Below the pieces are notes generated by a model that worked only from the letters and a program-made list of their open reading frames with translations, was not told the origin of the DNA and made no database searches. A DNA stretch of 33,914 nt from positions 1 through 33,914 of the forward strand of contig VBDZ01000007.1 in assembly GCA_005881215.1 (NCBI GenBank). Direction: 5' to 3'. The translations under genes were made by a program, and so were the position numbers. Positions 32,506 to 33,914 of the stretch are shown here, piece after piece. Each line of letters starts with the position of its first letter. Position 1 is the first letter of the stretch. This stretch comes from Chloroflexota bacterium. Lineage in GTDB: Bacteria > Chloroflexota > Dormibacteria > CF-121.

Positions 32506-32952
32506 ATGGGAATAGACGCAGAGGGATACGGGTACCGGGCCGGCGACGAGGGGATCGACCGGCTCTTGCGCGACGGCAGGACGCTGTCGCCCGCCGGCAT
32601 CGAGCGCGCGGCGTGGGGCTGGGACCGGCACGAAGATCCAGCCCTGATGCAACGGTTTCACGATGCCGAACGAGCCGCGCTGCGGGCGCTGGAGCAGGCC
32701 GACCGCAGTTCGACCTGGGACGACGCGCGAAAGCGAATCCTTGACCTCACCGAAGGACGCTCCTCGCTCGTGTCGTGGAAGGCGGAGCACGGCGATATCG
32801 GACACAAGGCGGAGCGCGCGATGCTGGGCGCCGCCCTCGCCCTGTTGACCCGCGACAAGCTGAGTCACGAGCAATACGCCACGCTGGCGCGCCCGATGGC
32901 CGAGGCGCTGCCCTGGCTGCTGCCGGAAGCGCCTCCCGAGCCCCGCCGATGA
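32506..32952 (+). CDS. Hypothetical protein
   Basis: 148 aa; MGIDAEGYGYRAGDEGIDRLLRDGRTLSPAGIERAAWGWDRHEDPALMQRFHDAERAALRALEQ; ATGA overlap with the next gene. Confidence 0.7.
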   Translation: MGIDAEGYGYRAGDEGIDRLLRDGRTLSPAGIERAAWGWDRHEDPALMQRFHDAERAALRALEQADRSSTWDDARKRILDLTEGRSSLVSWKAEHGDIGHKAERAMLGAALALLTRDKLSHEQYATLARPMAEALPWLLPEAPPEPRR

Positions 32953-33392
32953 TGATTCTTGCCCCGCGGGTCGATCCCGCGACCGCGAAGGCGAGGTTCG
33001 ACTCCGGCGCAGCCGTCCCACTCGACGTGACGAGCTCGCTCGTGTATCCAGCGATCAGCCATCGCATTCCGGGCTCCATCCGGATCCCGCCGGAGCCAAT
33101 CATTCGCGGGCTCAACGCGGCCAGACCCGTAGCCCAAATCCTGAAAAACCTCGAGAGCCTGCCGGCTGACCGGGAGATCATCGCCTACTGCACTTGACCG
33201 GACGAAGGCACCAGCGCCCGTGTGGCGCAATTCCTCCAACAGCAGGGCCGCCGCGCGTCGGCGCTGAAAGGCGGGCTGGCGGCCTGGCGGGCCGCCCAAT
33301 TTCCGATGGAATCGAAACACGCCGGGCATGCGCCCGGCCCGGAAGAAGAATGCCCCGACTGCCACGAGGAAGTCGGGGCACACCTCGCCTGA
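32949..33392 (+). CDS. Rhodanese-like domain protein with in-frame UGA at the catalytic Cys position (candidate selenoprotein; otherwise a disrupted gene)
   Basis: MMILAPRVDPATAKARFDSGAAVPLDVTSSLVYPAISHRIPGSIRIPPE...EIIAYCT[UGA]PDEGTSARVAQFLQQQGRRASALKGGLAAWRAAQFPME...ECPDCHEEVGAHLA*; UGA at 33195-33197. Confidence 0.75.
33214..33228 (+). promoter_or_regulatory. Candidate bacterial SECIS apical hairpin
   Basis: GCGCC-CGTGT-GGCGC, loop beginning 21 nt after the UGA, G at loop position 2. Confidence 0.45.
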
Positions 33393-33400
33393 CTGCGGCG

Positions 33401-33914
33401 TTAGTCCGTTAGCTCGTAAACCACCGCGACGTCGACGGTGACGTTCGCCTGGCCGGCCTGGATCGGCGCGCCGCCACCGCCGCCGCAGCCGCCATAGCCG
33501 CCGCATGGCGAGCTGGTCGAACCATTGGACACCACTTCCGAAACCGACAGCACCTTGCCCAGGTGCCGGCCCGCAAGCGTCGCCCACTCTTTGGCGCGAG
33601 TTGCGGCGGCGGCCATCGCGGCCTGGCGGGCGCCCTTGAGCTGGGTCGTGTTGTCGCTCAGCTGCAGCGTGATCCCGTTGAGTTGGATGTCATCGCCGAC
33701 GGCTTTCTGCGCCGCCGCGATCACGCTGCCGACGTTGCTAATGTGATGAATCTTCACATTGACCGAATTCCCCGCCCGGTAGCCAATGGCTCCGTACTGC
33801 GTGTCCTGGTAGACGGAAATGCCGGTGGTCTGGATGTCGACGTCCACCACCCCCTGGCCCTTGATCGCGTTGAGCAGGTTGGTCATCTCGGCGTTGGCGG
33901 CGTTCATCGCGTCC
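33401..33914 (-). CDS. SIMPL (DUF541) domain protein, N-terminus beyond the window
   Basis: AEMTNLLNAIKGQGVVDVDIQTTGISVYQDTQYG...GYRAGNSVNVKIHHISNVGSVIAAAQKAVGDDIQLNGITLQLSD...ARQAAMAAAATRAKEWATLAGRHLGKVLSVSE. Confidence 0.88.
   Translation of the reverse strand, partial: DAMNAANAEMTNLLNAIKGQGVVDVDIQTTGISVYQDTQYGAIGYRAGNSVNVKIHHISNVGSVIAAAQKAVGDDIQLNGITLQLSDNTTQLKGARQAAMAAAATRAKEWATLAGRHLGKVLSVSEVVSNGSTSSPCGGYGGCGGGGGAPIQAGQANVTVDVAVVYELTD

Follow-up and report, generated by a model that had tools for sequence, protein, structure and literature searches.

A rhodanese gene with a conserved in-frame UGA, very likely read as selenocysteine, in an uncultured soil Chloroflexota genome

The goal of this analysis was to determine whether an in-frame TGA in a rhodanese gene of a Chloroflexota bacterium is read as selenocysteine (Sec). 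The window, by which we mean the whole stretch of DNA analyzed (33,914 nucleotides of contig VBDZ01000007.1), belongs to a MAG of 2.79 Mb in 255 contigs that is 88% complete (G000); its congeners come from soil, in samples named by soil depth. An initial annotation had proposed that the frame 32949-33392 encodes a rhodanese selenoprotein, that its UGA lies exactly on the catalytic Cys, and that standard ORF callers would truncate the gene at 33197. The frame was exactly as described, and plain ORF calling did stop the gene at 33197. The gene and its neighbors are as follows.

32506 to 32952, plus strand: upstream ORF, function not known; overlaps the rhodanese start (ATGATGA) and is retained in nearly all congeners
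32949 to 33392, plus strand: putative rhodanese selenoprotein gene; 147 residues and a stop codon, with Sec at codon 83
33195 to 33197, plus strand: UGA codon predicted to be read as selenocysteine (Sec83); conserved codon in relatives, Cys in paralogues
33401 to 33907, minus strand: SIMPL (DUF541) gene; convergent neighbor, used only as a synteny marker

The internal TGA is codon 83 of the frame, and the terminal TGA occupies 33390-33392. Around the internal TGA the frame reads REIIAYCT-TGA-PDEGTSARVAQFLQQQGRRASALKGGLAAWRAAQFPME, and 64 sense codons lie between it and the final stop. The start ATG at 32949 overlaps the upstream ORF's stop codon (ATGATGA), so the gene coordinates are right; the two genes are probably co-translated. 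The order of ORF, rhodanese, and SIMPL gene was retained in all congeners with contigs reaching the region. The read-through product matched the Pfam Rhodanese model (PF00581) end to end with 44.9 bits, against a cut-off of 22.2. A search of the whole G000 genome for Rhodanese gave eight matches, two of them with an internal TGA, one of which was the window locus.

Two further features bear on the protein.

33189 to 33191, plus strand: Cys81 codon, two residues before Sec; invariant part of the C-x-U motif
33351 to 33362, plus strand: C-terminal C-P-D-C (Cys135, Cys138); CPxC is retained in the family and missing from more distant homologues

A confident AlphaFold2 model made with ten relatives as input had a mean pLDDT of 86.6, and the modeled fold was that of a rhodanese. 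Solved rhodaneses (3gk5, 3nhv, and E. coli GlpE, 1gmx) share this fold with Z of 12.5 to 14.3 (14.3 for 3gk5, 12.5 for 1gmx), but they are only 17-26% identical to the window protein and have a catalytic Cys and no Sec. A gapless count back from the loop Ser placed Sec83 at the catalytic-Cys position, at the loop start (U-P-D-E-G-T-S), whereas the HMMER alignment to 6mxv placed Sec83 at the catalytic position in one domain and Cys81 there in the other. The proposed placement of the UGA on the catalytic Cys thus stands as the best alignment but not as the sole one: Sec83 most likely replaces the catalytic Cys that opens the rhodanese loop, with Cys81 as the other candidate. In the mechanism that we propose, the selenol of Sec83 would accept a sulfane sulfur, donated by thiosulfate or by a persulfide, to give Sec-Se-S- and then hand the sulfur on, a loading step that follows general rhodanese chemistry. 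Cys81 could serve as a resolving thiol, via a selenenyl-sulfide intermediate. The product would be a rhodanese-fold selenol enzyme engaged either in sulfane-sulfur transfer or in persulfide/thiol redox chemistry.

It is possible, although we hold it to be the lesser part of the probability, that the selenoprotein is mainly a thiol/selenol redox enzyme, reducing persulfides or peroxides with the Cys81-Sec83 pair, and not a sulfurtransferase. Plain sulfur transfer needs no such Cys, yet all Sec homologues of this type that were found had Cys81, even when the search pattern did not demand Cys. The C-terminal CPxC is family-specific, and a redox function is presumed for the majority of predicted selenoproteins (PMC9312934). 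Against this, the rhodanese fold is preserved, the rhodanese loop and the GG-x-x-W regions are intact in the Sec protein, and no link of the gene to a reductase was observed.

The initial annotation had made its case depend on the presence of sel genes, and all of them were found in G000. The selA gene scored 679 bits, with selB (354 bits, cut-off 242) directly behind it. A tRNA-Sec with anticodon UCA scored 58 bits with Rfam (gathering score 47) and was also reported, as tca, by ARAGORN. The selD gene is itself of the Sec type, with an in-frame TGA at SHGAG-U-ACK. Two fdhA-like genes (L167, L168; G000:C44, G000:C234) have an in-frame TGA at ARV-U-HGPTV and ARI-U-HSSTV, the classical Sec sites of their families. 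With selA, selB, tRNA-Sec, and selD all found, we conclude that G000 has a complete route from UGA to Sec, with other genes using it. Near the N-terminus of the selA frame (L009:2-1477, G000:C177) a stretch of about 100 residues is repeated in tandem, perhaps as an assembly artefact. Among the relatives, selD was not found and no selB scored above the cut-off in G008, and selB was not found in G135, despite a UGA rhodanese gene in each; missing contigs would explain these gaps most simply.

A SECIS candidate behind the UGA adds to the observations of the initial annotation.

33214 to 33228, plus strand: candidate bSECIS, with the upper hairpin GCGCC-CGUGU-GGCGC at a spacing of 21 nt from the UGA and its apical loop at 33219-33223

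Among 11 congeners, dS was 0.42 across the 20 codons that follow the TGA, compared with 1.0 before it and 0.88 further downstream, a drop that we attribute to this hairpin. Homologues from several families had the identical 21-nt spacing between UGA and hairpin in 19 of 20 cases. Across 19 distinct Sec sequences the Ser was always encoded by AGC, the Arg by CGT, and the second Ala by GCG, whereas 18 Cys homologues used several codons at the same sites, with no fixation. Both the loop (CGUGU or CGUGC) and the Arg codon CGT were found in 36 of 37 Sec homologues; CGT makes up about 8% of the Arg codons in neighboring genes. When 24 sequences were aligned without gaps, the five stem pairs were formed in 98.3% of the cells, and three of the five showed compensatory changes on both sides. 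These pairing and covariation values were reached by none of 500 shuffles, and the pairing signal was gone when the partner arm was slid by one to three columns. The clearest compensation was in L164, where the Ser codon is changed from AGC to TCA and the opposite arm is altered with it; in L150 an A-U pair replaces G-C in the stem.

The published limits for a bSECIS are a stem of 4-16 bp, a loop of 3-9 nt, a distance of 16-37 nt from the UGA, a G in the first two loop positions, and an MFE of at most -7.5 (PMC13188914). The window hairpin lies within them (stem 5, loop CGUGU, spacing 21), with an energy of -7.6 kcal/mol when the 15 nt are folded alone and -10.3 when flanks are included. Folding of the 51 nt behind the UGA as a single sequence gave a result no better than shuffles (z 0.30), so the SECIS claim rests on sequence comparison. 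In the proposed mechanism SelB and tRNA-Sec would act on the hairpin at 33214-33228 to insert Sec at the UGA at 33195-33197.

The UGA might instead be handled in another way: the genetic code could have changed, the codon could be passed by near-cognate read-through, or the short product of 82 residues could itself be functional. The part upstream of the UGA is by itself a complete open frame, and short and long products could coexist, as in any UGA-decoding gene. A short form, however, would lack half of the fold, including the active-site loop, and the genome holds the whole Sec route together with an element behind the UGA that fits the bSECIS model. The terminal stop of the gene is TGA in the window but TAA or TAG in the orthologues L023, L030, and L033, which argues that TGA is an ordinary stop elsewhere, while the internal TGA was never swapped for another stop in the orthologues. 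A changed genetic code was rejected on these grounds, and we consider this whole group of explanations very unlikely.

Read-through searches identified an orthologue with TGA at codon 83 in 12 of the 15 genus members and in two other genera from the same family, for a total of 14 family genomes; the remaining members had the Cys paralogue only. Beyond the family, 90 of 400 Chloroflexota genomes matched the alignment at E 1e-14, many of the matches having one TGA inside, and 37 distinct Sec sites were readable in the available loci of this wider set. A TGA shared by 14 family genomes and by homologues numbering in the dozens is more than chance would give, and the codon was common to independent assemblies. 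Two pattern matches, L045 (minus strand, VCSU) and L161 (plus strand, VCNU), were judged to be due to chance and excluded from the Sec set. Several TGA-bearing Chloroflexota matches (G247, G305, G417, G406, and others) lie within open frames of 500-700 codons, so that fusions to other domains may exist among the UGA rhodaneses.

In 11 congeners, dN/dS by the Nei-Gojobori method was 0.125 upstream of the TGA (72 codons) and 0.071 downstream of it (64 codons). The latter value indicates strong protein-level selection on the part behind the TGA, and bears out the earlier view that the downstream frame is not decaying. One orthologue (L031:1470-1501, in G013) has a TAG just upstream of the conserved start region, and its first ten codons are missing from the frame, perhaps because of an assembly frameshift. 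A pseudogene dying behind its stop, or a sequencing or assembly error in a codon that is truly TGC or TGT, could draw on the fragmentation of the source MAG and on the defective start of L031, but it is ruled out by the conservation of the TGA in 14 family genomes and many other families, with purifying selection behind the TGA and compensatory changes in the hairpin also against it, and we regard it as extremely improbable.

Together, the conservation of the UGA, the sel genes, and the SECIS hairpin strongly support the proposal that the window rhodanese is a selenoprotein, and we consider this very likely. On these comparisons of sequence we hold with high confidence that the gene encodes a Sec rhodanese in which UGA is read as Sec through SelB and tRNA-Sec on a SECIS element, Sec83 most likely lying at the catalytic Cys.

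The pairing of Cys and UGA at this column that the initial annotation had anticipated was found within G000 itself. Its second rhodanese copy, on C7, is a YCTC Cys form with 49% identity to the window protein, and such a Cys copy was also present in most congeners. Cys rhodaneses of the YCTCPDE type (C7, L035-L038, L059-L073) have the same loop and domain as the Sec protein and 43-50% identity to it within the family; they differ in having TGC or TGT in place of TGA and in leaving the synonymous sites of the hairpin unfixed. The tree required at least two Sec/Cys changes, of a direction not readable from an unrooted tree sampled mainly through searches with Sec proteins. In a Methylomirabilota MAG with selB, a homologue (L075:3193-3240) has the Cys codon TGT yet carries the exact hairpin AGCGCCCGTGTGGCGC. 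This single sequence would fit an exchange between Sec and Cys in which the SECIS persisted, possibly as a fossil.

Rhodanese-related selenoproteins have been predicted in Sargasso Sea data (PMC1088965) and in GOS data (PMC2398784). A review lists several forms, including "COG0607 form 2, CxU" (PMC9312934), and in the newest list the CxU rhodanese is form 3, with NCBIfam model NF041203, rhodanese_LYCAU (PMC13188914). Among the NCBIfam models, NF041203 matched the window protein best, with 60.3 bits over residues 8-123. Membership in that family was rejected at its cut-off of 115 bits, which was passed by no relative among 151 genomes. The two forms are alike in having a single rhodanese domain with Cys-x-Sec in the loop, but the window protein has A/I-A-Y-C-T-U and a C-terminal CPxC tail where NF041203 has L-Y-C-A-U. 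As far as the sequence indicates, the window protein would work like the NF041203 CxU form. Other predicted rhodanese selenoproteins (COG0607, COG2897, pfam00581) also have a UGA at an active-site Cys and a predicted bSECIS (PMC1088965, PMC2398784, PMC9312934); they differ in their UxxS or UxxG motifs or the two-domain structure of COG2897, and come from marine or other hosts. Rhodanese selenoproteins, the CxU form included, are thus already catalogued, and the window protein is a further member of a wider group. In the openly licensed literature we found no publication dealing with Sec rhodaneses from Chloroflexota, which does not imply that there is none.

A more far-reaching and, in our judgment, doubtful reading is that the C-x-U rhodaneses of Chloroflexota constitute a distinct, unrecognized selenoprotein subfamily in which the Cys-Sec pair serves in redox chemistry or as a selenium carrier and not in plain sulfur transfer, and in which the Cys paralogue may take over when selenium is short.

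Whichever chemistry applies, the locus appears to add a conserved selenoprotein with a covarying SECIS, truncated by ordinary ORF calling, to uncultured soil Chloroflexota, in a C-x-U branch recognized by no current family model. With Sec and Cys copies in one genome, a near-identical short hairpin across many families, and a Cys gene that retains the hairpin, the locus offers a clean case in which to study both the exchange of Sec and Cys and a minimal SECIS. Since rhodanese selenoproteins are only predicted in the cited papers, an assay would tell what benefit selenium brings to a rhodanese.

The second UGA rhodanese of G000 (L006, C43:4513-4866, minus strand) is a fusion to a CBS domain with the loop YCNDFG-U-DMS, of the UxxS form. 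Relatives of this gene occur across the class (30 genomes), with TGA in all that were found. Codons +6, +7, +9, and +10 behind their TGA are fixed (GCC GCG ... CGG CTC), and a SECIS-like hairpin is present.
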